Assembly: GCA_017472685.1 (NCBI GenBank)
Contig: JAFUOO010000011.1
Span: 186,001-250,000 of the forward strand
From: Clostridia bacterium
Lineage (GTDB): Bacteria; Bacillota; Clostridia; UMGS1883
DNA: 64,000 nt
Direction: 5' to 3'
The position numbers and the translations under genes are program-made. The notes below the pieces were generated by a model. The model did not search any database, was not told the DNA's origin, and saw only the letters and a list, made by a program, of their open reading frames with translations. The first letter of the stretch is position 1; each line of letters starts with the position of its first letter. Below are positions 4,774-24,410 of this stretch, in pieces.

Positions 4774-4824
4774 AAAAATGTTGAACTTATAGTGAGCATG
4801 GATTTGTAATGAATAATTGAAGCA

Positions 4825-4865: not shown

Positions 4866-4873
4866 GTGTACTA

Positions 4874-5244: not shown

Positions 5245-5271
5245 AGTGCGCACCTCCTTTGTTAGTGTCGT

Positions 5272-5300: not shown

Positions 5301-5364
5301 GAGAATTATTGAAGAATATAGCGAGGGATTTCAATTACAGGAATAATGTTGAAAAAGTAAGATT

Positions 5365-6048: not shown

Positions 6049-6050
6049 TG

Positions 6051-7253
6051 TTACACCTCCCAATCAAGCATGCTACGCAGATAAGGATCTGCCCCATATC
6101 GTCCTTCAAGATATTGCTTGTCATAAGAAGCCGTTGCATTGATACGAGAGCCATCTTCACGGCGAATTTCGTACAAAGAATAAATCTCGCTGCTACGTTC
6201 CTTGTTCAAAGCAGCAAACCAAATTTCATCTCTTCTAAAAACATCGTTTTTCATCGTGGACATATCATGAGACGTGAACAAAAGCTGAGCTCCGTTCTTG
6301 TTTATCTTCTTGTTTGTAAATAAAGAAATGATGTATCTTAAAAGCTTTGGATGAAGTTTAGCATCCAACTCATCGATGATTACAAGTCTACCTTCGCTCA
6401 AAGCAAGCATCAATACGGGAAGAGCGGCGAAAACCTTTTTTGTGCCGTCTGACTCAGCTATAAAATTCAACTTGAATTCTTCATTGTTTATCATTCGAGA
6501 AAGGAATATTTGCTTTTCATCCTGATCGTAGTAATAGTCGCTTATATCAATTCCCATATCATTCAATGCGTGGATAAAGGCTGATTTGAATGGAGAATCA
6601 TCAGAAAGCATAATATTATGCTCAACATTTGGATTTGCATAATTTCTAATAATACACGATTCAAACCATGTCTGAACATCTGCGATATCTGAGAAATTAT
6701 AATTAATAGCCAAAAATGAGAGATATGGCATTTTCGGGTTAACTTCTGTATTAACAGTTGACCTGTTGATACTTGCCCCAAGAATTATCTTGTCTCCATC
6801 TCGATTAAAGATTAATGCCGGCTTTTTACCGGTAAATGAACGTCTTTGTAGTACTTCGGATACAATAATATCGTTGTGCACAGCAATATAATATCTAAAT
6901 TCATTTTCTTTAACTCTAAAATAAATATTAAATTCCGTTGGTTCATCCTTGCTATACGAATCCATAAAGAACGGTACACAGGGAGAAACCTGTTGTAAAA
7001 TGAAAGAAACTCTATTCTTTTTTAAATCCTCAATTGGCTTTGTAACAATAGAAATCAAACAAGCCAAAGCCTGTAAAAGGTTTGTTTTTCCTCCACCATT
7101 TGGTCCGTATATTACGCTAACCGGCAATAAATCTGACACGTCGTTGAAAGAGATGATACTATCCTCGAATTCATTTAGAGATTCTGCTTGTAAATCAAAT
7201 GTAGTTTCATCCTTATAAGACATAAAATTCTTAAAACTAAATTGACATAACAT
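6051..7253 (-). CDS. AAA_15/21-type ATPase (RloA/AbiLi-like)
   Basis: The 400-residue ATPase starts MLCQFSFKNF, the usual N-terminal strand of overcoming-lysogenisation-defect/RecF-like ATPases. Walker A is GPNGGGKTN (residues 50-58), and Walker B with the following Asp/His loop is VIIDELDAKLHP. No long coiled coil is present, so it is the short, two-gene form of the family. ATG at 7253 has GGAGG eight bases upstream; the longer start at 7268 has none. Its promoter at 7278-7306 is near consensus. Together with the RloB-type gene it forms a two-gene abortive-infection module comparable with AbiL and PARIS. The partner is RloB-like rather than DUF4435, so I do not call it PARIS. Confidence 0.85.
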   Translation of the reverse strand: MLCQFSFKNFMSYKDETTFDLQAESLNEFEDSIISFNDVSDLLPVSVIYGPNGGGKTNLLQALACLISIVTKPIEDLKKNRVSFILQQVSPCVPFFMDSYSKDEPTEFNIYFRVKENEFRYYIAVHNDIIVSEVLQRRSFTGKKPALIFNRDGDKIILGASINRSTVNTEVNPKMPYLSFLAINYNFSDIADVQTWFESCIIRNYANPNVEHNIMLSDDSPFKSAFIHALNDMGIDISDYYYDQDEKQIFLSRMINNEEFKLNFIAESDGTKKVFAALPVLMLALSEGRLVIIDELDAKLHPKLLRYIISLFTNKKINKNGAQLLFTSHDMSTMKNDVFRRDEIWFAALNKERSSEIYSLYEIRREDGSRINATASYDKQYLEGRYGADPYLRSMLDWEV

Positions 7254-7277
7254 ATTAATTACCTCCAATTCATCTTT

Positions 7278-7306
7278 ATTATAATGCTATCATAACCAAA
7301 AGTCAA
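7278..7306 (-). promoter_or_regulatory. Promoter of the ATPase/RloB operon
   Basis: On the minus strand, TTGACT (7301-7306) and a perfect TATAAT (7278-7283) are 17 bp apart, followed by the operon start 25 bp downstream. It is one of the strongest promoters in the island. Confidence 0.85.
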
Positions 7307-7556
7307 GTTTTATACCTGCGTTTGAGAAAAATATTTTCCAAAAAGCCACTATAAAACACCGGCCTCTAATGTTTATAATATTCGTTGGACTTGTGTAAGG
7401 GAGTGTGGTAAGTTCTAATGCGTATAATCAAGGAAGACGCGATTTATAAGAACGGTTTTTGTATTACAGTGTTCTATGAATCTTTTGATTGAGAAACAGT
7501 TGTCCGCTATAAATGCGCATTAATCCAATAATCAAATTTCAATATATAAAGGGAAA
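7307..7556. other. Intergenic stretch without a supported gene
   Basis: This stretch separates two minus-strand units. The only ORF of note is a 24-codon frame at 7418-7492 (+), which has no convincing ribosome site. I see no tRNA, repeat or conserved structure. Confidence 0.5.
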
Positions 7557-7596
7557 TTAAAAGCACTGCAGTTCAAAAATGATTACAGTGCTTTTT
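7557..7596 (-). terminator. Terminator of the ribbon-helix-helix gene
   Basis: AAGCACTG (7561-7568) pairs with CAGTGCTT (7586-7593), flanked by A and T runs on both sides, so it could stop transcripts from either direction. It lies six bases beyond the stop of the minus-strand gene. Confidence 0.75.
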
Positions 7597-7601
7597 GATA
7601 T

Positions 7602-7802
7602 TTATTTGCGGCCGGGTTTTACATTTTCAGCCGGGTTGATATTGCCATCGATTGTGCCATGCTCATTCTCAAATTTTTCAATGCTTTCCCGAATGAGGAC
7701 AAGGATGTGACTGTTTACACTGCGGCCTTCGTAGTCGGCAACATGGCCGATTTTTGCTAACATTTCTTCTTCGATACGGATAGATACACTCTTAGTAGCC
7801 AT
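7602..7802 (-). CDS. Ribbon-helix-helix (CopG/Arc-type) DNA-binding protein
   Basis: The 66-residue protein begins MATKSVSIRIEEEMLAKIGHVADYEGRSVNSHILVLIRESIEKF. That is a basic beta strand (SVSIRI) followed by two helices with an xGRSxNSxI turn, the ribbon-helix-helix fold of small dimeric repressors and antitoxins. The last 20 residues are polar and probably disordered. GAGGTG precedes ATG at 7802. No toxin gene is adjacent on the same strand. The divergent SLOG gene starts about 110 bases away, so the protein may control itself and that neighbour from the shared intergenic region. The regulatory target is inferred. Confidence 0.75.
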   Translation of the reverse strand: MATKSVSIRIEEEMLAKIGHVADYEGRSVNSHILVLIRESIEKFENEHGTIDGNINPAENVKPGRK

Positions 7803-7909
7803 ACAAACACCTCAAAATAAATATATTGTATGTTTATTTTAGATGAATTATGTGGTAAAATGTTTTAAATGGATATACGGTATATCTAAAATATTTTTAA
7901 AGGGTGTTT

Positions 7910-8383
7910 ATGGTGGGTATAAAGAGATGCTGCTTTGCGGGGCATAACGAAACTTACGGTGACGAGGTTAAAAATAAGATAAAAGAAATTGCTATCCGGT
8001 TGATTGAGGGGGAAGGGGTAACGGAATTCTGGGTGGGGAACTATGGCGGTTTTGACAGGTGTGCTGCATCGGCAATGCGAGAAGTGAAGAAAGAATATAC
8101 ACAGATTAAGCTTGTGATTGTATTGCCGTATCTGACAAAGGAGGTAAATGGGCATAGGGAGGATTTTTATAAAAAATATGACAGCATAGTTATTGCAGGT
8201 ATGGCGGAAAAGACACCTGCGAGGTTGAAAATAATAAAGGCAAATGAATATATGGTTGACAATTGCGATTTTCTTATTTGTAATGTGGAACATTCATGGG
8301 GCGGGGCGGCAAAGACGGTAGAGTATGCAAAGAGAAAAGGGAAAGAAATATATTGTTTACAGGGAGTTTGTATAAAGAAATAA
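7910..8383 (+). CDS. SLOG-fold (DUF1273/DprA-like Rossmann) protein
   Basis: The protein of about 157 residues reads CCFAGHNETYGDEV, then a gap, then FWVGNYGGFDRCAA, then LVIVLPY, with a later DFLICNVEHSWGGAAKTVEYA. This is the YpsA/DUF1273 pattern of the SLOG superfamily: a Rossmann-like fold with a glycine-rich pocket for nucleotides or nucleotide-derived signals. SLOG proteins occur both as housekeeping proteins and as sensors in defence islands. I chose ATG at 7910 with AAAGGG upstream; GTG at 7913 is also possible. No effector domain is fused. It converges on the NTPase gene, and the two share a terminator hairpin. Confidence 0.75.
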   Translation: MVGIKRCCFAGHNETYGDEVKNKIKEIAIRLIEGEGVTEFWVGNYGGFDRCAASAMREVKKEYTQIKLVIVLPYLTKEVNGHREDFYKKYDSIVIAGMAEKTPARLKIIKANEYMVDNCDFLICNVEHSWGGAAKTVEYAKRKGKEIYCLQGVCIKK

Positions 8384-8425
8384 AAAGACCGTATCACAGA
8401 AGGTGTTTTCAGTGATGCGGTCATT
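8384..8425. terminator. Shared terminator between convergent SLOG and NTPase genes
   Basis: GACCGTATCAC (8387-8397) pairs with GTGATGCGGTC (8412-8422) with one G-T pair. On the minus strand it is followed by TTTTTATTTCTTT, so it chiefly terminates the NTPase gene. The plus-strand tail is weaker. Confidence 0.75.
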
Positions 8426-8449
8426 CTTGTAAAATATATTGGATGATTT

Positions 8450-10624
8450 TTAGTTGGTGGAATTCTCAGTCGCCAACCATGCACAAAAATCTTCATAAAC
8501 AGGAGTTAACTCTTTAACGTCCATTCGTGATAATGCATTATAGTAAATGCCCTTATTCTGAACTATGGTTTCATCAATTTTATAAAGATGAGAAGCTTCA
8601 TACAACATTTTAGTTTCCTTCATATAATTGAGAACTTTGCGTTTAAGACTACTATTGCCAACGACCACATATTCGATTCGATCAGCGGTCTTAGCTAACA
8701 TGTCTTTCCTATGAGTTCTAAATTCCATAAGGATGCATCTTAAACCATGTATAAACTTAATAGCATCAATGTCGGAACTGTTCTCAAAATCGTATTTGTA
8801 ATTGATGAGTCGATGAAAGTCGTTTATGTTGGGTGCAGATATAAGGGGTTTTCCGTTGCCGAGGATTTCAAATACGGGGTGAAGACTTTCCATATCATCA
8901 TGAGAAACAATTAAACAACTGTTGTCATCAAAACATTCAATAGCAATGTTTTGGGAATTCCATATGATTTTTTTGCAGACAATTGAAGAGTCAGAGAATC
9001 GCGTTGTAGCACTTCTCTTTCCGATAGTTACGGGTATTGTTGGGGTGTTTATAGAAATACTTGAAACTTGATCAAACCAGAGGCCGGCCGGAGATACAGT
9101 TACTGTTAAAAGGATTTCTTCTTTTGTTATTTCTGTTTTGTTGGGACGAATGCCAAAAGAAGCAAGATATTCCACAGAACCATCTATTTCGCCTGAAATT
9201 TCCGAAACCTGTAAGTAAGGCCTTTCCTTTGCCGTAGCTTTAGCCTTAAATGAATCATAGACATAGGATAAATGCTCAGATTTAATATTATTATCAGAGA
9301 TGCTTCTGTAGCAATCAAAAAAGATTTGAGAAGGGAAATAAGACTGGCTTTGAGACTCTTCAAAATATAAATCTGCAAGTTCATAATCCTTAGAAAGAAG
9401 AATTTTTGCCAGAGTATAATCTCTAAATGCAGGACCAGTAAATGCATATTTGCGGCTAGAACTTATGATGTTGCGTATAAAGGGATGTTGAGGTAAAAAC
9501 TGTTTAATAATCTCCTGATAATCATCAATTAAGTGGGAGGGGAGCCCTTTAATTGTATACGTATCATAAGAAGGAACCTCATTAAAGAGGATATAGTTTA
9601 CTATGCGAACAAGTTGTTCTTCCGGTGAATAAACAATTCCCCAATCTTTAAAATCGGGATAGTTTGATTGACACCTAACTCTAAAAGCCTCTACAACTTT
9701 ATCCTCTTGCTCTCTTATGAGAAGGCGATCCATTATCTGCATAATTATGGATACACAATCCTTACGATTTTGCAATTCATTAATGATTTTCTGCCGATTA
9801 TTGTTTGCAGTAATATTTTTGGCAATAGCTTCCAGTACGGGTGCATAGCCTAAAAAAGAATCACATTCTTCGGGAGTAATATTATTACGAATGACATCAT
9901 AATATGCATTTATGCAGTCATTATCAGCAGCAGTTATAGTGCGATTGTCTCTTTCAATGGTCTTTGTGATAAAGTCCTTGGCTTCATTTTCATAAAAGAA
10001 ACCTATTTCATAATGCTTAAAAGAAATGGAGTTCTCTGCACAGAATGAAGCTATAAATTGTGCAGTTTCAGTACGTGCTAATAAGAAAACGGGCGCCATA
10101 GTATGCGCTGTCAGACTGGTATTAATTTCTGAAATAAAATTACCAATCATTTTTCGACCTGACACAATTTCAGCCTCATCAAATGCATCTATAACAAGGA
10201 GTGTGCTTGCCGAATTAAGATTAGATATAAAATTGGAATAGTTTGGGGCTCCTATTGCATTTAAAATAGACCCAGCAAAGCTATTGGTACCAATTTGTAC
10301 TTTTGCAACATTCCAATATAAGGCACCATACCTATGTGCTATATGTTTTGCAAGTGATGTTTTACCAGTAGCACCCGGAGCAGAAAACAATATTAATTTG
10401 GGATTCAAAGAAGAACTTCTATGATCAGTTTTTACATCATTAAACGAAGGTGCCACATAAAATGGTGGAGTATCAATATACTTGATATATGCAGATACAT
10501 CTTTATTTAATTCATATCTTTTACAAGATTTGTAACCATTTAAAATTACATCTAAAGTCATGGTAGTTTCTCCAATGCAAGAATTGATATATTTGGTTAC
10601 ATTATAACTTAAAACAAAAGACAT
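8450..10624 (-). CDS. NACHT/STAND-like NTPase, candidate single-gene defence protein
   Basis: The 724-residue protein has Walker A GATGKTS at residues 84-90 (within LILFSAPGATGKTSLAKHIA) and a NACHT-like Walker B with doubled acidic residues, TLLVIDAFDEAE (about 142-153). A likely sensor arginine (LLARTETAQF) follows. The remaining 500 residues form a helical middle region and a C-terminal half with beta segments that I do not recognise. The first 75 residues match no known effector domain. I chose ATG at 10624 because GGGAGG sits seven bases upstream. STAND NTPases with large C-terminal sensors are known phage-defence proteins (Avs and bacterial NACHT families). This one stands alone in its operon. 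Confidence 0.75.
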   Translation of the reverse strand: MSFVLSYNVTKYINSCIGETTMTLDVILNGYKSCKRYELNKDVSAYIKYIDTPPFYVAPSFNDVKTDHRSSSLNPKLILFSAPGATGKTSLAKHIAHRYGALYWNVAKVQIGTNSFAGSILNAIGAPNYSNFISNLNSASTLLVIDAFDEAEIVSGRKMIGNFISEINTSLTAHTMAPVFLLARTETAQFIASFCAENSISFKHYEIGFFYENEAKDFITKTIERDNRTITAADNDCINAYYDVIRNNITPEECDSFLGYAPVLEAIAKNITANNNRQKIINELQNRKDCVSIIMQIMDRLLIREQEDKVVEAFRVRCQSNYPDFKDWGIVYSPEEQLVRIVNYILFNEVPSYDTYTIKGLPSHLIDDYQEIIKQFLPQHPFIRNIISSSRKYAFTGPAFRDYTLAKILLSKDYELADLYFEESQSQSYFPSQIFFDCYRSISDNNIKSEHLSYVYDSFKAKATAKERPYLQVSEISGEIDGSVEYLASFGIRPNKTEITKEEILLTVTVSPAGLWFDQVSSISINTPTIPVTIGKRSATTRFSDSSIVCKKIIWNSQNIAIECFDDNSCLIVSHDDMESLHPVFEILGNGKPLISAPNINDFHRLINYKYDFENSSDIDAIKFIHGLRCILMEFRTHRKDMLAKTADRIEYVVVGNSSLKRKVLNYMKETKMLYEASHLYKIDETIVQNKGIYYNALSRMDVKELTPVYEDFCAWLATENSTN

Positions 10625-10842
10625 GTCAATTCCTCCCAAAACCAATATTAATAGTATATGCAGTAAATTTGCTTGTTAGACCAACAAAGTGATTAATATG
10701 ATAATACCATTATAAAAACTTTCATTTCGTGCCAATGTATATGCTTTTTCTTTGTGGTATAATATTCCGTGAAAGGGGTGATGCGGATTGAGGGTAGGAG
10801 GTTGAAAGGTGGAAAACAATAAAAAAATAAGGAGGCAGTAAT

Positions 10843-12318
10843 TTGATTGACTATGAACAATTTAAGAAGATGAAGGAGTACAAGGAAATCGGCTTATCCA
10901 AGGAGAAGACGAGGAAGCATCTGAAGATTACCATGTACGAAATCAACAAGTGGTGGCATCTGGATGAGAAGGAATACTTTGAAAAGCAGAGTGAGGCAAC
11001 CTACCAGATGGACCCGTACAGGGATTTCATTATTCATCACTTGAAGATTTGTCCGCAGATGCATGACATGAACATCCGTTACAAGCTCCGTGAGAACTTT
11101 CCGGATTTTAATGTGCCGAGGTCGAGCTTTCAGCGGTATATGAGGAAGCTCCGGGAGCAGACCGGCTTTGTAAGGCCCTTTGAGAGGCAGGTAACGGTGA
11201 GGCCTGATTTACCGCCCGGGTATGAGGCACAGGTAGACTTCGGGCAGTTTAAGATGCGGAATCTGTACGACAGGGAAGTCAGGATATATTTCTTCGTGAT
11301 GGTGCTTTCCTACAGCAGGATGAAGTTCGTGTATTTCTCCCACGATCCGTTCACGACGGCAACGGCCATTGAGGCGCACAGAATGGCGTTCCAGTATTTC
11401 GGCGGGCGGACACAGACGATACTGTATGACCAGGACAGGGTGTTCGTTATAAGCGAGAATTTAGGGAACATTGTGTTCGTTAAGGAGTTTGAGGACTTTG
11501 TGCGGAAGGCAGGCTTCCAGGTGGTGTTATGCAGACCAAGCGACCCGCAGACCAAGGGCAAGGTTGAGGAGGTTGTGAAGCACGTTAAGGAGAGCTTTCT
11601 CAAGGGGAGGATATACTCCGGCATTGACAGCCTGAATAGTGCGTGCCTCTCGTGGCTTGACTTGGAGGGCAACGGAAAGGTGCACCTTGCAACGAAGAAA
11701 AAACCAAGGGATATGTTCCGCGAGGAGGTAAAGTACTTGCAGAGCGTGAAGCCTGAGGGCAGAGGTGTTGGGTCGGTATTTTCTGTTACGATGGATAACT
11801 ACATAAGCTACAAGGACAACCGCTACGAGATACCACAGGAGGCCATGCTTGAAGGCTGCAGGGTGAGAGTTGTGGAGGACGACGGGAATTTACTGATTTA
11901 CCGTTCGGCGACAGATGACCTTGTTTGCAAGCACCCCTTGTGCACCGATGTGGGCAGAGTGATAAGCCTTGAGGGCAAGAAGCGGGACATTGTTTCCATG
12001 GAGGAATTGGAGGATTTGTTTGCCGACAGCTGGGTTGCGGAAACCTTCTTTAATGCTATACATGAGGGCAACCCGAGGTATATGGATTCCCAATGCAAGA
12101 GGCTTTTAAGAATGACGAATTATTATTCCATTGCACAGCTTGAGGACGGGATGGCGTACTGCTCGAGGATGGGCGAATGCACGGTGCATGAGCTGACGAG
12201 CTACCTCATATTCCGCTTTGGTGAATCGGTGGCGGCACAGTTTCTGAACACGAGCCAGATGCGGAACTACAAAAGGCGTGTTGCCGAGATAAAGGAGGAG
12301 CAGAATGGCAGATATTGA
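10843..12318 (+). CDS. istA: IS21 transposase IstA
   Basis: The 491-residue protein has an N-terminal helix-turn-helix region (about residues 15-45) and a DDE integrase core. The visible catalytic acidic residues are in QVDFGQF (first Asp), LYDQDR (second Asp) and KGKVEEVVKHVK (Glu). The C-terminal beta domain contains the SYKDNRYEIP segment usual for IS21 transposases. Translation starts at TTG 10843, seven bases after GGAGG. The full length and intact catalytic residues suggest an active enzyme. It cuts and joins the element's ends together with IstB, whose gene overlaps its last 14 bases. Confidence 0.95.
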   Translation: MIDYEQFKKMKEYKEIGLSKEKTRKHLKITMYEINKWWHLDEKEYFEKQSEATYQMDPYRDFIIHHLKICPQMHDMNIRYKLRENFPDFNVPRSSFQRYMRKLREQTGFVRPFERQVTVRPDLPPGYEAQVDFGQFKMRNLYDREVRIYFFVMVLSYSRMKFVYFSHDPFTTATAIEAHRMAFQYFGGRTQTILYDQDRVFVISENLGNIVFVKEFEDFVRKAGFQVVLCRPSDPQTKGKVEEVVKHVKESFLKGRIYSGIDSLNSACLSWLDLEGNGKVHLATKKKPRDMFREEVKYLQSVKPEGRGVGSVFSVTMDNYISYKDNRYEIPQEAMLEGCRVRVVEDDGNLLIYRSATDDLVCKHPLCTDVGRVISLEGKKRDIVSMEELEDLFADSWVAETFFNAIHEGNPRYMDSQCKRLLRMTNYYSIAQLEDGMAYCSRMGECTVHELTSYLIFRFGESVAAQFLNTSQMRNYKRRVAEIKEEQNGRY

Positions 12319-12982
12319 AACAGTCAGAAAAATTGCTTTTTCCTTAGGATTAAGGCACATATCCGACGGGGTTATTGATTTGACTGAGGACGGGAAAACA
12401 CCCCTTGAGTATTTGCAGGATGTCCTTGGCAAGGAGTTGGAATACAGAACGGAAAGCAGGGTTGTACGCTTCAGGCAAAAGAGCAAGATGCCGAGAAAGG
12501 TATTTGACGAGCATAACCTTTCAAAGGGGTTACAATGGCAGTTAGAACATTTAAAGACATTAAACTGGGTGCAGGATGACCAGAACGTTATTATCCTTGG
12601 CAAGTGCGGAACAGGCAAGACGAGCCTTGCGGTTATGCTAGGGGAGAAGGCGTTGTATGATGGGTACAAGGTGTTCTATGCTACGATGGATTCGCTGCTC
12701 GTTATTATTAAACAAAAAGAGCATACACTCAAAGCGGAAAACCTCTTTAAGTATATGCGTGAATGCAGTGTGATTATTGTTGATGATATGCTGTATTCAA
12801 ATGTTTCGAGGGAGGAGGCACACATGCTGTATAGGGCGTTGGCCTTTTTCAACGAATGCAGGAGTCTGGTTATTATATCTAACCGTGACATATCCGCATG
12901 GCACGATGCGTCGGAGGACAGGCATCTTATACAGACCATGCAGGACAGGCTGACAGCTAACTGTCAGATTATAAGGTTGTAA
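12305..12982 (+). CDS. istB: IS21 helper ATPase IstB
   Basis: This 225-residue AAA+ protein of the DnaC/IstB type has Walker A GKCGTGKTS at about residue 99 and Walker B SVIIVDDM. A C-terminal arginine-containing helix region (QDRLTANCQIIRL) ends the protein. IstB assembles on target DNA and recruits the IstA transposase. At 225 residues it is a little shorter than the usual 240-260, mainly at the C-terminus, but all ATPase motifs are present. The gene starts inside the istA 3' end (ATG 12305, GGAGGAG upstream), the normal coupling in this family. Confidence 0.93.
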   Translation: MADIETVRKIAFSLGLRHISDGVIDLTEDGKTPLEYLQDVLGKELEYRTESRVVRFRQKSKMPRKVFDEHNLSKGLQWQLEHLKTLNWVQDDQNVIILGKCGTGKTSLAVMLGEKALYDGYKVFYATMDSLLVIIKQKEHTLKAENLFKYMRECSVIIVDDMLYSNVSREEAHMLYRALAFFNECRSLVIISNRDISAWHDASEDRHLIQTMQDRLTANCQIIRL

Positions 12983-13000
12983 CACTAACCGCAGTTAAAA

Positions 13001-13144
13001 ATGTTGCCAATAACAACAAAAGGCTCCCAGCTGTACCGCAATACAAAGAATGCGATATATAGCAAAGGAACCTTTGTCGACATCAGTATATCAGACTTGA
13101 TAGACGATGTCAATCTTTATGATTATATTATAAAATACACTTAA
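13001..13144 (+). CDS. 47-residue ORF directly after istB
   Basis: ATG at 13001 lies 18 bases after the istB stop, and the frame runs to TAA at 13144. The peptide (MLPITTKGSQLYRNTKNAIY and so on, with an acidic SDLIDDVNLYDYI near the end) has balanced protein-like composition. It has no obvious ribosome site, so it could depend on coupling to istB or be a remnant of the gene the element entered. I do not recognise it. Confidence 0.4.
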   Translation: MLPITTKGSQLYRNTKNAIYSKGTFVDISISDLIDDVNLYDYIIKYT

Positions 13145-13465
13145 CCTTTAAGGGGTTAATACTCAATTTGAAAATAATGCTGCGAAAGCGGCTTTAAATA
13201 TAGGGCAAACGGTACTCTGTTAAGAGATGTTTAAACTCTCAAGTCACCAACACAGGGGTCGAAAAAATTATCTTTCCGATTTAGTTTTTCGGGCTTTTAA
13301 GGGGGCGGGGGGAGGTGAAATCTCTACAACTATTCGTTGATGCAACGGGCGTGGGGTATCGTGTGCAAAAATCGGAAATCAAACGGTAACCCTGCGGTTC
13401 CGAGACAACCGTGCCCAAATGATTTTGCGTCAATTATACAATGGGTGTAAAAACTCAAAATGGTA
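13145..13465. other. Non-coding stretch between the IS and the Dam-methylase operon
   Basis: No supported gene lies here. It contains a GGTTAA-type short hairpin at 13141-13159, an inverted pair TTTCCGATTT (13273-13282) and AAATCGGAAA (13369-13378), and a 15-base word at 13365-13379 that recurs upstream of hsdM. The right end of the IS probably lies in this stretch. Confidence 0.5.
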
Positions 13466-13543: not shown

Positions 13544-14614
13544 ATGAGTTTTATATCTGCAAGAGAAGCGGCTGATAAATGGGGAATATCCCAAAGAAGA
13601 GTTGCTGTTCTCTGTTCCGAAAATAGAATTGATGGTGCGACCATGGTGGGCAATATGTGGATTATTCCGAATGAAGCCCAGAAGCCTGTTGATGCCAGAA
13701 GCACACGATATATAAATAGTGATGAAAAAACTGTGAAACCATTCTTGAAATGGGCAGGGGGTAAGGGTCAACTTATTAAAGAAATTGAACAGTATTACCC
13801 ATTTGAAAACGATAAAATAACAAAGTATGCAGAGCCCTTCATTGGAGGGGGTGCAGTATTGTTTGATATCTTAAACAAGTATGACTTGGAAGAAGTATAT
13901 ATCAGCGATATCAATCATGAGCTTATCAATACGTATTGTACTGTCCGTGATGAGATAGATGCGTTATTGAAATTGTTGTCGATATATCAAAAAGAATATA
14001 TTCCGCTTGGTACTGAAATGCGCAAGGAATATTACATAGCAAAGCGTGATAGATTCAATGATTTGAAAGTTAATGGAAACATTAAAACAAATGTAGAAAA
14101 AGCCGCATTGATGATATTCTTAAATAAAACCTGCTTCAACGGATTGTTTAGAGTAAACAGAAAAGGTTTGTTTAATGTTCCGATGGGGGCGTATAAGAAT
14201 CCTATTATCTGTGATGAAACAAATCTTCGTGCAGTGGCAGAAAAGTTAAAGAAGGTTACCATTGTTTGTGGAGACTATAAGGAATCAGCAGACTTTATTG
14301 ATCAAAATACTTTTGTGTATTTTGATCCACCATACAGACCTATAACAGAAACTGCAAGCTTTACATCATACGCTGAAAATCCTTTTGAGGACGAACAGCA
14401 GATAGAGTTGGCACGATTTGTTGATTCAATGAGTGACAGAGGAGCAAAGATTGTTGTGAGCAACTCCGATCCGAAGAATGTCAATAAAGAAGATGATTTC
14501 TTTGATGATATTTATAGTGCGCATACGATAAGAAGAGTTGAAGCAACTCGAATGATTAACAGCAATGCAGATGCAAGAGGCAGGATAAAGGAATTACTAA
14601 TATCAAATTTTTGA
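13544..14614 (+). CDS. Dam-family adenine methyltransferase with N-terminal helix-turn-helix
   Basis: Residues 1-50 (SAREAADKWGISQRRVAVLC, then RIDGA and WIIP) form a MerR/excisionase-like helix-turn-helix. From about residue 66 a Dam-class N6-adenine methylase follows, with FLKWAGGKGQL (AdoMet site), EPFIGGGAV and catalytic DPPY at 261-264. Dam/DpnM relatives methylate GATC, so this should protect host DNA against the DpnII nuclease encoded two genes downstream. Classic DpnM proteins lack the N-terminal HTH, so this copy probably also controls its own operon through the palindromes at 13495-13530. The ribosome site AGGAGG lies seven bases before ATG. GATC specificity is inferred from the family. 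Confidence 0.92.
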   Translation: MSFISAREAADKWGISQRRVAVLCSENRIDGATMVGNMWIIPNEAQKPVDARSTRYINSDEKTVKPFLKWAGGKGQLIKEIEQYYPFENDKITKYAEPFIGGGAVLFDILNKYDLEEVYISDINHELINTYCTVRDEIDALLKLLSIYQKEYIPLGTEMRKEYYIAKRDRFNDLKVNGNIKTNVEKAALMIFLNKTCFNGLFRVNRKGLFNVPMGAYKNPIICDETNLRAVAEKLKKVTIVCGDYKESADFIDQNTFVYFDPPYRPITETASFTSYAENPFEDEQQIELARFVDSMSDRGAKIVVSNSDPKNVNKEDDFFDDIYSAHTIRRVEATRMINSNADARGRIKELLISNF

Positions 14615-14626: not shown

Positions 14627-15964
14627 ATGAACGAATTAGAAGTCTTTACAAATAAAATAATTGAAATCTGTGAAAACAATGCACAGCGAATGGATATTTT
14701 TACTGCCAGACAAATAATAAAGGAAATCAACACCTTTTTGTATACTGCACCATCAAACATTGGGGTAGTAACAGAGTTTGGGACAGAATTTCCGTACTTT
14801 TCAGCTTTTCATAAATATTGGCATTTGCACCACAAAGAGATTCTTAATTTGACAATTGACGAGGATGCATGTGAAAAAGTTGCGGATGCTCTGCATGAAG
14901 TATATGTACGCACTAATGGAAAGGCTTTTGCAGAAGTGTACGATACCAACGGATTAGATTCAAAGGATGTTTGCAGAGTACGGTTGTTGAGTGCAAACCA
15001 AGATTTTAGAGGCTCGAGAAGTTTTGAAAGTTTATCAAAGATATTTAATTCTGACCCTACAATTTTTGACGAATTTGCTATAAATGAATCGCCTGAAGAT
15101 TTTGTGAAATCTATTGGAATAACAGGATTGTCTCAAAATGATAAGAGAGTACAATATGCTAAAAGAATATCTCAATTCGTAATTGACCATGGTACTGACC
15201 CTTATGGGATTATAGAGGTTTTTGGACATGATGTCACAGCGTTAAGAAATGCATTAATAACATATGAAGGTGCGGGATACGGAAATAAAAAGACTGACAT
15301 GTTTATACGAGATATGGTTGTGTTAGGCGTGTGGAAAGATGTTGAAGGATTTGATAAAATTGATGTTGCGAGTGATATAAATACGATAAGGGTTGCCTTG
15401 CGTACAGGAATTTTAAAAAGTGAAATTCCATTAGTGTCGAGTTTCTTAGATATTTTTTGCTATCAATATGGCTATGTTGATGAAACTAATGCCTTGGCGT
15501 GGAGAAGGGTTTGGGAAATTTGGAATGAAAAGTACGCAAATGAATCTATAGAGAGTCCGTGTCTGTTAGATTATTTTATCTATAATGTTGTAGGGAAACA
15601 ATTTTGCAAGTTTTCTTTGTATTATTTTGTATGCGAAAAAGAACATGGTTTTTATTGGCACAGTTCTCAAAACAAAACCTGTCAAATTTGTTATAAAGAA
15701 ACAGGGGTACGTAACCCTGCAAAGTTATTATGTAAAAGGATGCCTTGTGAGTGCGAAGAAGGTGCTATTGCTATAGATAAAACAGGGTTTGTACGTTCTA
15801 ATATGGCAAATCCTAACTATCATCAATGCCCATTTAAGGAAATCTGCGATGAATTTGGGAATCGAGACTTAATGCCTCCAAAATCCATAAGCATAATGGG
15901 ACAAACTGGTTGGAGTTCAGCATACACGCGAGAAAATTCAGGTGGCGGTGGCTTAATGGCTTAA
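14627..15964 (+). CDS. HhH-GPD DNA-glycosylase-like protein with cysteine-rich tail, inside the DpnII operon
   Basis: The 445-residue protein has a helix-hairpin-helix-like segment GAGYGNKKTD (residues 215-224), then SDINTIRVALRTG (249-261). These match the order in endonuclease III-type glycosylases, where a lysine in GVGRKTA and an aspartate in VDTHIFRV are catalytic. Candidate residues here are Lys221/222 and Asp250. The C-terminal quarter holds seven cysteines in pairs (C352/C355, C369, C374/C376, C401/C407) that could bind an Fe-S cluster or zinc. An LMPPKSISI segment and a glycine-rich end follow. It lies 12 bases after the methylase and 14 bases before the nuclease, so it belongs to the operon. 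Base removal or strand cleavage is a family-based hypothesis. Confidence 0.6.
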   Translation: MNELEVFTNKIIEICENNAQRMDIFTARQIIKEINTFLYTAPSNIGVVTEFGTEFPYFSAFHKYWHLHHKEILNLTIDEDACEKVADALHEVYVRTNGKAFAEVYDTNGLDSKDVCRVRLLSANQDFRGSRSFESLSKIFNSDPTIFDEFAINESPEDFVKSIGITGLSQNDKRVQYAKRISQFVIDHGTDPYGIIEVFGHDVTALRNALITYEGAGYGNKKTDMFIRDMVVLGVWKDVEGFDKIDVASDINTIRVALRTGILKSEIPLVSSFLDIFCYQYGYVDETNALAWRRVWEIWNEKYANESIESPCLLDYFIYNVVGKQFCKFSLYYFVCEKEHGFYWHSSQNKTCQICYKETGVRNPAKLLCKRMPCECEEGAIAIDKTGFVRSNMANPNYHQCPFKEICDEFGNRDLMPPKSISIMGQTGWSSAYTRENSGGGGLMA

Positions 15965-15978: not shown

Positions 15979-16842
15979 ATGAAAAGTAGAGTTTTTGACG
16001 AATGGCTCAGTGAATTTAGAAATAGTATATCCGATTACAAGTATTATATCGACTTCGAGAAAGTTCATCGCAATGTTGATGAAATTAAAGTAGAATTGAA
16101 TATTTTAAACTCTTTGATAGGGTCAAAGAATATTGAATCGGATTTTGAAGCCTTACTTGAAAGATATCCGGAAGTTCTTAAATGTATTCCATTGTTATTG
16201 GCTGTGAGGGCAAATGAAATATATGCAATGGATGGAGATGGTGAGTTTACCTATAGATTTGACAGACAAAATCTTTCTGTGGAGCAATATAAAATTTTCA
16301 TGAGAAAGACAGGATTATTTGATTTAATCGAAAACCATGTAGTTAACAATCTTGTTGACTATGCTACAGGTGTTGAAACGGGGCTTGATTCTAACGGAAG
16401 AAAAAACCGAGGAGGACACTTGATGGAAGATTTAGTTGAGAGCTATATAGTAAAAGCGGGATTTATAAAGGATGAATCGTATTTTAAAGAGATGTACATT
16501 CATCAAATTACAGATAAATGGGAAATAGACTTATCTGCTATTTCTAACCAAGGAAAGATGGAAAAACGATTTGACTTTGTTATAAAGACAGACAATATGA
16601 TTTATGGTATTGAAACAAATTTCTATGGTAGCGGTGGATCTAAATTGAATGAAACGGCACGTAGCTATAAGACATTAGCTCTAGAAACAGATACGATAGA
16701 TGGATTTACTTTTGTTTGGTTTACTGACGGCAAAGGGTGGACAAGTGCTCGCCATAATCTTGAAGAAACATTTGATGTTATGGAGCATATTTATTCGATT
16801 AACGATTTAGAAAGTGACATTATTAAAGAGGTTTTTGTATAA
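15979..16842 (+). CDS. DpnII/MboI-type restriction endonuclease
   Basis: The 287-residue protein matches the DpnII family. Shared features are the N-terminal FDEWLSEFRNSISDYKYYIDF, a central SNGRKNRGGHLMEDLVE, and a putative catalytic core WEIDLSAI, then KRFDFVIKTDNMIYGIETNFY. The D...D/E-x-N/K acidic residues there are of PD-(D/E)xK type. Family members cut unmethylated GATC before the G. ATG at 15979 is preceded by AAAAGGAG; a longer frame from 15910 overlaps the previous gene and is less likely. The stop overlaps the next methylase start (TAATG). Production of both enzymes from one autoregulated operon fits safe restriction. Confidence 0.92.
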   Translation: MKSRVFDEWLSEFRNSISDYKYYIDFEKVHRNVDEIKVELNILNSLIGSKNIESDFEALLERYPEVLKCIPLLLAVRANEIYAMDGDGEFTYRFDRQNLSVEQYKIFMRKTGLFDLIENHVVNNLVDYATGVETGLDSNGRKNRGGHLMEDLVESYIVKAGFIKDESYFKEMYIHQITDKWEIDLSAISNQGKMEKRFDFVIKTDNMIYGIETNFYGSGGSKLNETARSYKTLALETDTIDGFTFVWFTDGKGWTSARHNLEETFDVMEHIYSINDLESDIIKEVFV

Positions 16843-17588
16843 TGGCAAAAAAAATGAAAAAATGGGAGCCTGAAAACTTTGAATTGGAAATGACGACACA
16901 CTGGTCTTTCCCTAAAAGAGGAGATTGGGCAACCCATGATGCTAAATGGAGAGGGAACTGGTCACCTTATATACCGAGAAATATAATCCTTCGATATTCG
17001 CAAGAAGGAGATTTGGTGCTTGACCAATTTGCAGGTGGAGGTACTACACTTGTTGAAGCAAAGCTTTTGAATCGTGATATAATCGGTGTTGATGTAAACG
17101 ATATTGCACTTGAACGATGCAGAGAAAAAACAGCATTTGATTACGAACCAGCAAAGGGAAAGGTATATATTAAAAAAGGCGATGCACGAAATCTTGACTT
17201 TATACCTGATGAAGGCATTGATTTAATATGTACTCATCCACCGTATGCAGATATTATCAAATATAGTGATGGTATAGAGGAGGATTTGTCGCAATTAAAG
17301 GTAAAAGACTTTCTTGAAGAAATGAAGAAAGTAGCTAGTGAAAGCTACCGTGTATTAAAGAAGGACAAGTTTTGTGCTGTATTGATGGGAGACACAAGGC
17401 AAAAGGGGCATATGATACCCATGTCTTTTGATGTTATGAAAATCTTTCAGGATGCAGGGTTTAAACTCAAAGAATTAATAATAAAAGAGCAACATAATTG
17501 CAAAGCAACTGGGTATTGGAAAACAAACAGCGTTAAGTATAACTTTTTACTTATCGCACATGAGTATTTATTTGTGTTTAGAAAGTAA
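16842..17588 (+). CDS. Second DNA methyltransferase (N6/N4 type) of the DpnII operon
   Basis: The 248-residue protein has an AdoMet-binding motif DQFAGGGTT (residues 61-69) and a catalytic-type motif HPPYADIIKY starting at 132. The AdoMet motif has the GTT ending seen in beta-class methylases, but here it precedes the PPY motif, a permuted order. DPPY/NPPY/SPPY is replaced by HPPY, a variant I recall from some methylases. Classical DpnII systems also carry a second methylase (DpnA) that acts on single-stranded GATC, and this protein may play that part. It could instead have another specificity. Translation is coupled to the nuclease by a TAATG overlap. Confidence 0.85.
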   Translation: MAKKMKKWEPENFELEMTTHWSFPKRGDWATHDAKWRGNWSPYIPRNIILRYSQEGDLVLDQFAGGGTTLVEAKLLNRDIIGVDVNDIALERCREKTAFDYEPAKGKVYIKKGDARNLDFIPDEGIDLICTHPPYADIIKYSDGIEEDLSQLKVKDFLEEMKKVASESYRVLKKDKFCAVLMGDTRQKGHMIPMSFDVMKIFQDAGFKLKELIIKEQHNCKATGYWKTNSVKYNFLLIAHEYLFVFRK

Positions 17589-17611: not shown

Positions 17612-20161
17612 ATGGATGAAAACATTTGCACTTGGTTGAACTCTCAGCCAGCATGGGTTAGAAAAGCCTCTGAACTGTTTATAAAGAATGGTATTATTAC
17701 CGCCGAAGAGATAGAAGAACTTGCTGATATTTGTGTGCTTGAAGTAAAAGGTGAAGATTGTTCAAACATAGTTTTGGAAAATTCTAACATATTGGATATG
17801 CGGCAAGGAAAGCCATTTTCCATCACAAGCATTTCCAAAATAGAGGGGGTAAATGCAATCTCAACAGATAAGGCATTGAATTTTAACCCAAATGGTATGG
17901 CGGTTGTCTATGGAGGAAATGGAACAGGTAAGTCTGGTTACATACGGATATTAAAAATGGTTTCAGGAGCCATATATCGTGAGAATATAAGAGGAAACAT
18001 ATACAATGCTGAGAAAAAGGCGCCAAAATGCGAGATTGAAATATTATCAGAAGATGAAAAAAAGATATTGTCTTGCGATTTAACAAAAGCGGCACAACAT
18101 GAAATTTTTAGAAAAATTGACATTTTTGATACTAAGACTGCCCAGGGATATATAGGTGATGAAAAAGAAGCAACGTTTGAACCATGGATCTTTGAATTGT
18201 TTAGAATTTTAGGTAATACAGCTACATTGATTAAAGAAACTTTGATGCGACGAAAAAACAATGCTCAGTTAAAAGAATTAGATATACCAGATTTTCTCAT
18301 AGACGATGAGGATATTAAAAGAATATCTAAAATTACCCATATGTCAAAAATTGAAGAATTCATGTGTGAGTTTACCGATGATGATAAATCGGAGTTAGAT
18401 TCACTAAGAAACAAAACGCAAATAGAAAAGAATGAACTTGCAATTAAAGTAAGGGACAGAGATATTGAGAATTTAAAAGAGGTTTTCGAATACTATCAAA
18501 CCTTTGAGAAATTCTATTCGGAAACAAATCTGGAAAAAATAGCACACTATAAAAGCGATTGGATGGAGAAAAAAGAGAAACTTAGGTTAACAAAGCAGTT
18601 GCTTGAAGCAACAAGCGATGAAATAGATCACTTGGGTATAGAAAATCATGTGTGGGAAGAATTTTGGAAAATTGCAAGAAGAGTTTTCGAGAAAACAAAG
18701 AGAGATGGAGATGCTGATTTTACAGATGTTGGGGGAATTTGCCCGTTGTGTCACCAACCAATAAGCAAAAATGCATCGAAGAGAATGACAACAATTGATG
18801 ACTACGTAAATGGAGAAGTTGCTAAAGCAGAATATGAAGCTAAGGAAAAATATCTTAAAGCATTTAATTATCCAACATCAAAGGACAATCAAGAAATATT
18901 AAGAAGAATATCAGGATTTGATAATGAACTGGGGAATTTACTGAAAGTTAATGATGTGTTGGCGGCTAATGGAAAACTTATACGAGAAATCAAAGAAAAT
19001 GCTGTTGAAATAGAAGTTGTGGATATTCGAAAAGCACTGAAACAGATAGCCGATGTGATTAAAAGATTGAAAGATGAAAAAGAGGCTTTGATACAAGCGA
19101 ATACAACAAATGAACAAACCGCAATCCAAAGTAAAATTATAAAACTTGAAGCAAAACAATTTATTTCAATGCATTTGGAACAAATAAGACATAATATATC
19201 TGTAATGGGTAATATGTACACATTAGATGAAGCGGTTAGACTAACATCCACGAATAGAATAACCGCAAAAAGTAAAGAGTTGGCGAAAATTTTAATTACA
19301 GATGCATATGTTGAACGATTTAATAACGAATTGAAGAAACTTTCTGGTAGCGGTTTGACGGCGCAACTTGTTCAATGCAGGGGGAATAAAGGGAAGATTC
19401 CCTACAAAATACAGTTGTGTGACGCAGAAGGAAATCCAGTTTCTCCAAAGGATATTTTGAGTGAGGGAGAGAGCAGAGCAGTTGCATTAGCGGCTTTTTT
19501 TGCCGAATCTGGGGGCAGAGATGAACGTTCTCCATTAATAGTTGATGACCCTATATCATCATTAGATTATGAGTATGAAAAAAGAGTAATTTTGAGGTTG
19601 GCAGAAGCAGCAGAATGTAGGCAAGTTGTTGTGTTTACACATAGGATCTCATTTGTAGTGGGAATGAGTGAACAATGTACAACCATAGGAAAAGTCAAAT
19701 TTCAAGAGATAAGCCTCAATGCAATAAGAGATAGAAAAGGCATACCAGGAAAAGCTAATATAAAAGCAGGACGTGTAGTTAACAATTTGAACGCCTTGTT
19801 AAATGAAAATGTTTCAAAACTCAAGAAAATGGATGAACTTAGTGAAGGGTTTGATACAGAACGTCATTATGTATGTCAGCAATTTAGAAACTGCGTAGAA
19901 AAGAGTGTTGAAGAGCTTCTTATTGGAGAAGTTGTATTAAGATTTAGGAAAGATGTTCAAACAAAAAGAATTCGCTGCTTAAAAACAATAACTAATGAAG
20001 ATTGTGAAATAGTAGACGAGATGATGACGAAATATTCAGCATATGATCACTCTATGTCAGATGAGACACCATTAATAGACTTTTCGGTAGAGGAAATTGA
20101 AAAAGATATTACTGCTTTTTTAGTGTGGGCTGAAAGCAGAAAGAGCATGCTAAACAAATGA
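17612..20161 (+). CDS. AAA_13 SMC-like ATPase with zinc hook, possible RloC/PrrC-type anticodon nuclease
   Basis: The 849-residue protein has Walker A GGNGTGKS (101-108), a central coiled coil interrupted by a CPLC zinc hook (C377/C380), an ABC signature ILSEGESRAVALAAFFAE, Walker B SPLIVDDPISSLD and an H-loop VVVFTHR. This is RloC-like architecture. The C-terminal domain shows R759xxxE763 (FRNCVEKS) and a histidine at 813 (YDHS). That resembles the Arg-Glu-His triad of PrrC/RloC anticodon nucleases, though the Glu-His spacing (50) is longer than in PrrC (32). PrrC and RloC normally guard type I systems; here the gene ends a DpnII-type operon. ATPase and hook are clear, and tRNA cleavage is inferred. 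Confidence 0.8.
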   Translation: MDENICTWLNSQPAWVRKASELFIKNGIITAEEIEELADICVLEVKGEDCSNIVLENSNILDMRQGKPFSITSISKIEGVNAISTDKALNFNPNGMAVVYGGNGTGKSGYIRILKMVSGAIYRENIRGNIYNAEKKAPKCEIEILSEDEKKILSCDLTKAAQHEIFRKIDIFDTKTAQGYIGDEKEATFEPWIFELFRILGNTATLIKETLMRRKNNAQLKELDIPDFLIDDEDIKRISKITHMSKIEEFMCEFTDDDKSELDSLRNKTQIEKNELAIKVRDRDIENLKEVFEYYQTFEKFYSETNLEKIAHYKSDWMEKKEKLRLTKQLLEATSDEIDHLGIENHVWEEFWKIARRVFEKTKRDGDADFTDVGGICPLCHQPISKNASKRMTTIDDYVNGEVAKAEYEAKEKYLKAFNYPTSKDNQEILRRISGFDNELGNLLKVNDVLAANGKLIREIKENAVEIEVVDIRKALKQIADVIKRLKDEKEALIQANTTNEQTAIQSKIIKLEAKQFISMHLEQIRHNISVMGNMYTLDEAVRLTSTNRITAKSKELAKILITDAYVERFNNELKKLSGSGLTAQLVQCRGNKGKIPYKIQLCDAEGNPVSPKDILSEGESRAVALAAFFAESGGRDERSPLIVDDPISSLDYEYEKRVILRLAEAAECRQVVVFTHRISFVVGMSEQCTTIGKVKFQEISLNAIRDRKGIPGKANIKAGRVVNNLNALLNENVSKLKKMDELSEGFDTERHYVCQQFRNCVEKSVEELLIGEVVLRFRKDVQTKRIRCLKTITNEDCEIVDEMMTKYSAYDHSMSDETPLIDFSVEEIEKDITAFLVWAESRKSMLNK

Positions 20162-21786: not shown

Positions 21787-23298
21787 ATGGTAAAGAGGGA
21801 TAAAATGATTAAAGGTGAATTGAAAAACAAAGTTGATTCTATATGGGATACAATGTGGACGGGTGGCATTACAAGCCCTGTTACTGTGCTTGAGCAGATT
21901 ACGTATTTAATGTTTATGAAACTATTGGACGACAATCAGCTTAAAGCAGAGGCGAGTGCAAATGCATTGGGTGTTACCTTGACTAAAAAAGTGTTTGGTG
22001 ACGGCATTTGCGTAATAAGTGAAAATCCTCGTGTTGAAACTGAATATAAAAACCTCCGTTGGAATGTATTCCACAATTTTGAGCCAAGTGCAATGTTTTC
22101 CAATGTTCAGAATTATGTTTTCCCGTTTATTAAGCAGATAGGTGAAGGCAAAGATACTGCGTTCAGTAAATACATGAAGGATACTGTATTTTTGATTCCA
22201 ACAGCAAAGGTGCTGGCAAAGGTTGTTGACGGAATTGATGCAATGGATATGAACAATAAAGACATTATGGGCGATGTGTATGAATATTTGCTTGGCAAGA
22301 TTGCATCCGCAGGGGAAAACGGTCAGTTCAGAACGCCCAGGCATATAATCAGCATGATGGTTAACCTTATGAAGCCTACATTGAAAGACAGAATACTTGA
22401 CCCGGCGATGGGTAGTGCAGGTTTCCTTCTGGAAGCATCGAACTATGTAAGTGAGCATTATCCAAAGGAGCTTATGAAGAAGGAAAATGCCGAGCATTAT
22501 AAAACAAAAATGTTTTCCGGCTTTGACACAGACCAGTCCATGCTTCGAATTGGTGCTATGAACATGATGCTTCACGGGGTGGAAAATCCGAATATTAAAT
22601 ATCAGGATTCTTTATCGGGAGATAACACCGAAAGAGGCTCTTATAGTTTAATAATGGCTAATCCGCCTTTTACAGGCAGTGTGTTCCAGGAAGAGATAAG
22701 CAAGGATATTTTGGGCTTGACCAAAACAAAGAAAACAGAATTGCTCTTTATGGCTCTCTTTACAAAGATGCTTGAGGTAGGTGGCAGATGTGCTTCTATT
22801 GTACCCGATGGGGTATTATTCGGCTCTTCTGCTGCACATAGGGCAATAAGAAAAGAGCTTGTCGAAAATCAAAAATTGGTTGCTGTTATTTCAATGCCTG
22901 CAGGAGTTTTCAGGCCTTATGCAGGGGTTTCAACAGCCGTTGTTGTATTTACAAAAACAAACGCAGGGGGCACCGATAAGGTTTGGTTTTATGACATGAA
23001 GGCTGACGGTTTCAGCCTTGATGATAAGAGAACTGCAGTTACCGAGAACGATATTCCCGACATTGTTGCAAGGTTTAGCAACCTTGAAGCGGAAACCGAA
23101 AGAGAACGAACGGAACAGAGCTTCTTTGTGGACAAGCAAGATATCGTGAATAATGATTACAACCTCTCTATTAATAAATATAAAGAGGTTGTATATGTGC
23201 CTGTTGAGTATCCTTCCACGGCTGAAATTATGGCAGACCTCCACACTCTTGAAATGGAGATAACAAAAGGCTTGGCAGAACTGGAGGAAATGTTGTGA
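21787..23298 (+). CDS. hsdM: Type I restriction-modification methyltransferase subunit HsdM
   Basis: The 503-residue protein has the HsdM N-terminal helical domain (ELKNKVDSIWDTMW, then SPVTVLEQITYLMFMKLLDD), the GQFRTPRHIISMMV segment, the AdoMet site DPAMGSAGFLLEA and catalytic NPPF at 292-295. It supplies N6-adenine methylation and, with HsdS, forms the DNA-recognising core of the complex. ATG at 21787 follows a GGAG; a second ATG six codons later has an AGAGGG and could be used instead. The gene overlaps hsdS by one base. All catalytic motifs are intact. Confidence 0.96.
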   Translation: MVKRDKMIKGELKNKVDSIWDTMWTGGITSPVTVLEQITYLMFMKLLDDNQLKAEASANALGVTLTKKVFGDGICVISENPRVETEYKNLRWNVFHNFEPSAMFSNVQNYVFPFIKQIGEGKDTAFSKYMKDTVFLIPTAKVLAKVVDGIDAMDMNNKDIMGDVYEYLLGKIASAGENGQFRTPRHIISMMVNLMKPTLKDRILDPAMGSAGFLLEASNYVSEHYPKELMKKENAEHYKTKMFSGFDTDQSMLRIGAMNMMLHGVENPNIKYQDSLSGDNTERGSYSLIMANPPFTGSVFQEEISKDILGLTKTKKTELLFMALFTKMLEVGGRCASIVPDGVLFGSSAAHRAIRKELVENQKLVAVISMPAGVFRPYAGVSTAVVVFTKTNAGGTDKVWFYDMKADGFSLDDKRTAVTENDIPDIVARFSNLEAETERERTEQSFFVDKQDIVNNDYNLSINKYKEVVYVPVEYPSTAEIMADLHTLEMEITKGLAELEEML

Positions 23299-24386
23299 TG
23301 GAGAAAGTTAGATTGGGGGATATATGCACAAGAGCATCATCGAATATTGCTCAAAAAGATTTGGATAATAATGAGGGAGATTTTCCGATTTATGGCGCAA
23401 GTGGTCTTATAAAAAATGTAGATTTCTATAAACAGGAAAAAGAATATATTGCGGTAGTTAAAGATGGGGCTGGAGTTGGCAGAGTAATGAAGTGCCCTGC
23501 GAAATCATCCGTGATTGGTACTATGCAATACATATTACCTAACGAAAATATACATATAGATTTTTTGGCTTTCGCTATGGAAAATATGAATCTGGCAAAG
23601 TATTATACGGGTGCAACTATTCCACATATATATTTCAAAGATTATTGTAAGGAAATTTTTTCACTGCCATCTGTTGACGAACAAGCGAGAATTACACGGA
23701 TTTTAAACAATGTAGTTGGTTTGATTGACAAACGAAAAAGACAACTTGAAAAACTGGATGAGCTTGTCAAATCCCGATTTGTCGAACTGTTTGGTGACCA
23801 AAAGACAAATCCGCACAACCTTGAAGTTGGCAAGTTGTCAGACGTTGCAGATATTTATCTTGGTTTGACACATACCCCTACTTATGTAGAACACGGCAGA
23901 CCATTTCTTTCTGTTCGGGATATTAGCTCGGGGGTGATTGACTTTTCAAATTGCCACTATATTACGGAAAAAGAATTTCATTCTCTGCCCAACGGTGCGA
24001 GACCCAAGGTGGGAGATATGTTATTTTGTCGTGTTGGAACAATCGGAAAACCCGTAATTATTACAGAGGACACTCCAGAATTCGGTACATTCGTTAGTGT
24101 AGGATTTTTAAGAAGAAAAGCGAATGTAAATAACTATTATCTCAAGGCTTGGATGGAAAACGACTACTTTATGCGACAGGTATATGATAATGTTGCCGGA
24201 GCTTCTCAAATTAATTTGAACACGGGTTGGTTAAAAAACTTCCGAATTCTCATTCCATCCATTGAATTGCAGAACGAGTTTACTGCCTTCGTCGAGCAGG
24301 TCAACAAATCAAAACTGGAAATACAAAAAGGTCTTGAAAAATTAGAATTATTGAAAAAAGCATTAATGCAAAAATATTTTGGGTAA
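23298..24386 (+). CDS. hsdS: Type I restriction-modification specificity subunit HsdS
   Basis: HsdS of about 362 residues contains two target-recognition domains, each followed by a coiled-coil spacer. The first ends SLPSVDEQARITRILNNV then IDKRKRQLEKLDELVKSRF, and the second ends LIPSIELQNEFTAFVEQ then LEKLELLKKALMQKYFG. Each domain reads half of a split DNA target. ATG at 23298 overlaps the hsdM stop (TGATG), with GGAGG ten bases upstream. No second partial hsdS, inverted repeats or recombinase lies nearby, so shuffling of specificity is not apparent in this window. The target cannot be predicted from sequence alone. Confidence 0.94.
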   Translation: MEKVRLGDICTRASSNIAQKDLDNNEGDFPIYGASGLIKNVDFYKQEKEYIAVVKDGAGVGRVMKCPAKSSVIGTMQYILPNENIHIDFLAFAMENMNLAKYYTGATIPHIYFKDYCKEIFSLPSVDEQARITRILNNVVGLIDKRKRQLEKLDELVKSRFVELFGDQKTNPHNLEVGKLSDVADIYLGLTHTPTYVEHGRPFLSVRDISSGVIDFSNCHYITEKEFHSLPNGARPKVGDMLFCRVGTIGKPVIITEDTPEFGTFVSVGFLRRKANVNNYYLKAWMENDYFMRQVYDNVAGASQINLNTGWLKNFRILIPSIELQNEFTAFVEQVNKSKLEIQKGLEKLELLKKALMQKYFG

Positions 24387-24410
24387 TTAAAAATCATGGA
24401 GGAGAGAAAC

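Follow-up and report, generated by a model that had tools for sequence, protein, structure and literature searches.

In the window analysed here, a stretch of 64,000 nucleotides from a Clostridia bacterium (contig JAFUOO010000011.1 of assembly GCA_017472685.1), a gene of 445 codons, hereafter X, is embedded in a restriction-modification (R-M) operon of the DpnII type (14627..15964, + strand, ATG start). The original prediction, which had been made from the sequence alone, correctly placed this open reading frame between the Dam methylase and the DpnII nuclease, and saw in it a likeness to endonuclease III-type glycosylases. X has orthologs, matches no known family and, according to models of moderate confidence, very probably adopts the HhH-GPD fold. 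Our best reading, to which we give about even chances, is that X is an N-glycosidase of the HhH-GPD superfamily and an interchangeable defence gene, housed in a slot of the DpnII operon and acting on invading DNA; we infer catalysis, DNA as the substrate and the defence role.

X is a real and intact gene, since it possesses full-length orthologs, a low proportion of nonsynonymous differences (pN) compared with synonymous ones (pS), and a ribosome-binding site of its own. The two orthologs, both with full-length open frames, come from locus L021, in an Oscillospiraceae metagenome-assembled genome from water-deer cecum (72% identity), and from genome G179 (L002/L070; 55%). Selection on X is purifying (pN 0.18-0.32 vs pS 0.77-0.84, the synonymous sites being saturated), in a pattern resembling that of the neighbouring DpnII and Dam genes. 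As regards a residence mostly outside restriction loci, which had been put forward as an argument against a role tied to restriction, 3/3 known copies (window, L021, L070) lie inside DpnII operons, each time in the gap between Dam and DpnII. Besides, X is rare: in a class-wide draw of 391 genomes, DpnII was detected in 32 and a convincing X in 2, which rules out X as a standard DpnII component. In a profile search of 398 genomes of the phylum, the X of the window alone rose above noise, no further ortholog was found in 188 genomes of the order of G179 or in 28 from the order to which the window belongs, and relatives were absent from the IMG/VR, phage and plasmid sequences searched; one scan of genome contigs used exact 8-residue patterns and was sensitive to close relatives only. 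Concerning the weak genome matches, L022 proved to be a chance hit antisense to riboflavin genes, and the remaining ones (L003-L020, L023, L024) are short and local, with E-values of 0.001-0.1.

The gap between Dam and DpnII looks like an interchangeable slot for defence cargo, as judged from an operon map that covers 31 DpnII neighbourhoods from the class, together with the L021 locus and four viral contigs. Among Dam-DpnII-DpnA operons close to that of the window, three whose DpnII is 81-86% identical to the window's (L056, L059, L063) have an empty gap of 12 bp; in others, it is occupied by an Mrr-type nuclease (L055, 5851-6672; L057, 2491-3312), a TIR protein (L060, 7642-8253), a 177-residue unknown (L058, 5983-6516) or an 80-residue open reading frame (L074). 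The view that DpnII systems normally comprise two methylases and a nuclease thus holds for many of the operons surveyed, whereas in related ones this spot is taken by other additional genes. In the DpnII tree, L070 is separate from the window and L021, the X-bearing DpnII genes not forming one clade, and the nearest relatives of the window's DpnII include empty and differently loaded operons. Taken together, the tree and these operons show that X has repeatedly been gained or lost and that DpnII itself does not require it, which favours interchangeable cargo over a built-in repair partner. The gap, as a swap site, would also offer a simple route to finding further defence genes.

Extra genes also occur between DpnII and DpnA, namely a 354-residue protein weakly like HSDR_N in L055, 178-residue unknowns in L066 (3921-4457) and L067 (5533-6069), and three genes, two of them ThsB/TIR-like, in L021. 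The latter locus (1-13387) contains tandem DpnII operons: in one of them, DpnII and DpnA flank an HNH nuclease, and the other has X plus the three genes. A second layout, in which Dam is divergent (36-39%) and separated from DpnII by a DpnA-like methylase, was encountered in L061, L062, L064, L065, L069, L073 and L118-L120, and some of these loci have another DpnA-like gene upstream of Dam.

The fold of X was examined with two AlphaFold2 models built from three sequences, one of the full length and one of residues 72-345, with mean predicted local distance difference test scores (pLDDT) of 51.6 and 61.7, respectively; these reach 83-93 across much of residues 110-210, are lower after 220 and poor past ~240. 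The structure prediction that had been called for as a check yields, with moderate confidence, HhH-GPD-type matches for both models. More precisely, the VIA-align rows belong to the HhH-GPD superfamily without exception above Z 4.9 for the full-length model and throughout the 50 rows listed for the other model, and the range covered by these matches delimits a putative HhH-GPD core at residues ~98-261 (14918..15409, +). The top match is Qng1/DUF2419 (Z 11.4 and 11.1 for the two models, root-mean-square deviation 3.3-3.4, ~144 aligned residues), followed by AGOG (8.2/7.5), OGG1 (7.6/7.3), endonuclease III (EndoIII; 6.9/7.0) and Mig.Mth (6.0/6.1); NTHL1, MagIII, MutY and ROS1 are matched as well. 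We take Qng1 to be a member of the HhH-GPD superfamily on the basis of its fold. With Foldseek, nothing convincing was obtained for the full-length model, and the best matches of the second model are OGG1 (prob 0.77) and MjOgg (0.63); in BFVD, its one meaningful match is the Halogranum tailed virus 1 endonuclease III (prob 0.99, E 0.12). As to other base-excising folds, X has no family match by sequence to the UDG superfamily, the structural matches listed being HhH-GPD, and the HALFPIPE fold of R.PabI is not among the structural matches listed.

Both motifs named in the original prediction were recovered, GAGYGNKKTD at residues 215-224 and SDINTIRVALRTG at residues 249-261. Lys221, Lys222 and Asp250 are identical in 3/3 homologs, while Asn220 is replaced by Lys in L002. 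The first motif is a Gly-rich hairpin (GxG) accompanied by Lys, as bifunctional members of the HhH-GPD superfamily have it. In the models, the putative hairpin GAGYGNKK (15269..15292, +) is followed by a helix at whose start Lys221 and Lys222, the candidate nucleophiles, are located. The candidate catalytic Asp250 (codon 15374..15376, +) falls, in the models, within one or two residues of the HhH-GPD catalytic Asp. Its equivalents, which are extrapolated from the ends of structurally aligned ranges, would be D231 of Qng1 (anchors 255<->236 and 246<->227; PDB 7ulc is titled D231N), residue 172 of Pa-AGOG (anchor 247<->169), 268-269 of OGG1, 137-139 of EndoIII and about 145-146 of Mig.Mth. The catalytic residues are K140/D172 in AGOG, K249/D268 in OGG1, K120/D138 in EndoIII and D144 in Mig.Mth. 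In terms of Lys-Asp spacing, X (28-29) is nearer to AGOG and Qng1 (32) than to EndoIII (18). Of the assignment to EndoIII-type glycosylases, the HhH-GPD-type fold, the position of Asp250 near the catalytic Asp and that of Lys221/222 at the hairpin can thus be retained; in contrast, no profile links X to EndoIII, and Qng1 as well as AGOG/OGG1 are structurally closer.

The C-terminus is indeed rich in cysteines, although their number is 10 within residues 312-407 rather than the seven announced, with 8 of them invariant (C312, C327, C336, C352, C355, C374, C401, C407). The invariant C336-x3-H340-x11-C352-x2-C355 (15632..15691, +), around which beta strands 331-336/341-344 are predicted with limited confidence, is probably a small zinc site, judging by its residues. 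The invariant Cys327 (15605..15607, +), at the end of the helix 312-326, could be the first ligand of an Fe-S cluster by analogy with the first cysteine of the iron-sulphur cluster loop (FCL) of EndoIII, the invariant C374 and C401-x5-C407 (15746..15847, +) then being the remaining candidates. The resulting spacing, C-x46-C-x26-C-x5-C, agrees with the C-x6-C-x2-C-x5-C of EndoIII in the last C-x5-C alone.

Compared with known systems, X is closest in fold to Qng1/DUF2419 (PDB 7u07, 7ulc, 7ugk) over residues ~98-255, where the Qng1 catalytic Asp231 corresponds to Asp250, and the spacing is wide in both, the mutated K199 and D231 of Qng1 being 32 residues apart and K221 and D250 of X 29. Unlike Qng1, X has a Cys-rich C-terminus and is located in an R-M operon, and it gives no match to Pfam Q_salvage. 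AGOG and OGG1 resemble X in fold (Z 7-8) and in the positions of Lys and Asp, with the wide Lys-Asp spacing found in AGOG, whereas X possesses ~95 extra N-terminal residues and the C-terminal Cys module, and sequence similarity is undetectable. With EndoIII, MutY and Mig.Mth, X shares a hairpin plus Asp and a Cys-rich C-terminus ending in C-x5-C, but it differs by its other Cys spacing and its probable zinc insert. Mig.Mth, too, is encoded together with an R-M system; the methylases accompanying X produce N6-methyladenine (m6A), not 5-methylcytosine. The operon itself compares with the DpnM-DpnA-DpnB system by its adjacent Dam, DpnII and second N6-methylase, and departs from it by the additional gene inserted between Dam and DpnII.

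Two established cases of antiphage defence through base excision are Brig1, which belongs to the UDG superfamily and removes alpha-glucosyl-5-hydroxymethylcytosine (PMC11078745), and Brig3, which removes 5-hydroxymethylcytosine (PMC13160076); the latter work, a preprint, also cites Brig2 as acting on modified thymines in Pseudomonas phages. The logic proposed for X, immunity through the removal of bases from invading DNA, is shared with Brig1 and Brig3, while X differs from them by its predicted HhH-GPD fold and its operonic association with DpnII. Attack on modified phage DNA, one of the roles initially suggested, is the one that fits best, since other defence genes occupy the same slot. In this scheme, X would bind DNA via its hairpin and its Cys-rich C-terminal module and flip a base out, Lys221 (or Lys222) and Asp250 would remove it, and an abasic site or a beta-elimination nick would be left in the invading DNA, the likeliest targets being modified bases that let phage DNA escape DpnII. 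A bolder version, which we consider rather unlikely, is that X represents the first HhH-GPD antiphage base-excision effector coupled to GATC restriction, depurinating modified phage DNA that blocks DpnII, such as that containing 7-deazaguanines, and that DpnII operons are platforms swapping second-line weapons in one slot. The 7-deazaguanines are candidates because the core of X is Qng1-like; the deoxyarchaeosine-containing DNA of phage 9g is fully resistant to BamHI, an enzyme with GATC inside its site (PMC5567051). In the open-licence literature, neither an HhH-GPD antiphage glycosylase nor a DpnII cargo slot was found, the known antiphage DNA glycosylases Brig1 and Brig3 being of the UDG superfamily and the known restriction glycosylases HALFPIPE enzymes. 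If correct, the presence of an HhH-GPD cargo in a type II R-M operon would bring a further large superfamily of glycosylases into bacterial immunity. It would also point to a pairing, in which the nuclease deals with unmodified DNA and the base remover with DNA that escapes it.

Several points weigh against X being a DNA-directed HhH-GPD glycosidase. The models are weak, resting on three sequences, Z-values below 8 in VIA-align may reflect a common arrangement (below ~13 for helical bundles), and the Foldseek E-values are all 0.1 or higher. At the sequence level, profiles do not back membership of the family: PF00730 (HhH-GPD) gives no match even at E 10, searches of Pfam, NCBIfam, PADLOC, PHROGs and the PDB sequences with X are all empty, no alignment with 27 EndoIII relatives was obtained by hhalign, for which the X profile is too shallow, the Qng1 family Q_salvage (PF10343) is not matched, and Qng1/AGOG sequences of the class, sought for profile building, were none above cut-off. 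In addition, Qng1, the closest neighbour, acts on a nucleotide, not DNA, and modified DNA is not a necessary target of what the slot carries, as its TIR effectors indicate. The low pLDDT, the non-significant Foldseek E-values and the missing sequence link would all be expected if the fold match were an artefact of shallow alignments and X a helical zinc-binding protein of some other kind, such as a DNA-binding accessory or inhibitor; we judge this improbable, given that the two models concur, that all 50 listed rows of the second one are of one superfamily with D250 placed consistently, and that the hairpin and Asp motifs had been picked out independently from the sequence. Scarcely more probable is that X, like Qng1, hydrolyses a modified or free nucleotide (or RNA) on infection. 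In agreement with this, the best structural match is the queuosine-5'-monophosphate hydrolase DUF2419/Qng1 (Z ~11, the DNA glycosylases scoring 7-8), the Asp fitted to it equals its D231, and TIR-type genes are found in the same slot elsewhere. On the other hand, Q_salvage is not matched, the GxGxxKK hairpin of X is of the kind usual in DNA-binding HhH, its Cys-rich modules are characteristic of DNA glycosylases, and the operon that houses it targets DNA, all of which speaks against such a hydrolase.

The remaining alternatives keep DNA as the substrate. The original prediction had also envisaged repair, and Mig.Mth, an HhH T/G glycosylase that lowers the damage from deaminated 5-methylcytosine (PMC2714593, PMC9266487), would provide the precedent: X, with its HhH-GPD fold, would excise hypoxanthine, the product of m6A deamination, or a different lesion at GATC, and so limit the mutation or self-damage that the methylases bring about. 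Endonuclease V was not found in the window's genome, in line with such a need. Nevertheless, it was not found either in 22 other genomes of the class that were checked, most of them with DpnII and G179 alone with X, and the L021 genome has X and endonuclease V together; the two thus show no complementary pattern across the genomes checked, and endonuclease V as the complement of X was discarded. Besides, operons with an 81-86% identical DpnII do without X, and the slot's other genes serve defence, not repair. The deamination of m6A is slow, which also speaks against this role. Repair of hypoxanthine is therefore the less likely reading, and a repair partner in general is distinctly improbable. 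The idea that X is a second GATC restriction enzyme, removing a base from unmethylated GATC, appears very unlikely. Enzymes restricting by base excision do exist (PMC10273834), R.PabI and R.CcoLI tying it to methylation as X might, and X is always accompanied by GATC methylases able to protect the host. However, these enzymes are of the HALFPIPE superfamily (PMC10273834, PMC7806768), the R.PabI family thus having a different fold, and the nuclease role is already filled by DpnII at the X locus, with operons lacking X being complete.

The operon genes around X all lie on the + strand, with the adjoining Dam, DpnII and second N6-methylase characteristic of a DpnII system. The Dam-type GATC N6-adenine methylase, which is DpnM-like, lies at 13544..14614 (PF02086, 8.4e-59; TIGR00571, 1.6e-83), the DpnII endonuclease (GATC) at 15979..16842 (PF04556, 4.3e-110), and a DpnA-like N6-adenine methylase overlapping the end of DpnII at 16842..17588 (PF01555, 1e-25; PADLOC type II methyltransferase, 1.4e-151). 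Dam, X and DpnII are probably co-transcribed, given the short spacing (12 bp from the Dam stop to X, 14 bp from X to the DpnII start) and the GGAG-type ribosome-binding sites ahead of X, directly past the Dam stop, and of DpnII. The Dam methylase carries an N-terminal extension of ~60 residues (13544-13730) weakly like a helix-turn-helix (HTH_17 match only E 0.024), which is common to the window and L002, probably also to other ~355-residue Dam proteins of the class, and possibly serves autoregulation. Directly 3' of the operon stands an SMC-like ATPase of the phage-defence candidate PDC-S06 (17612..20161, +; PDLC04893, 1.1e-209), and a complete type I R-M system (M, S, R; 21787-27551) close to the DpnII operon makes the region a defence island. 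An IS21-type transposase pair (istA/istB-like, 10843-12982) lies directly upstream of the operon, and a 731-residue AAA/STAND-like ATPase with weak family matches (IetA-like, 8e-4) at 8450-10645 (-). Finally, in favour of the best reading, the host genome encodes its own housekeeping HhH-GPD genes apart from X.
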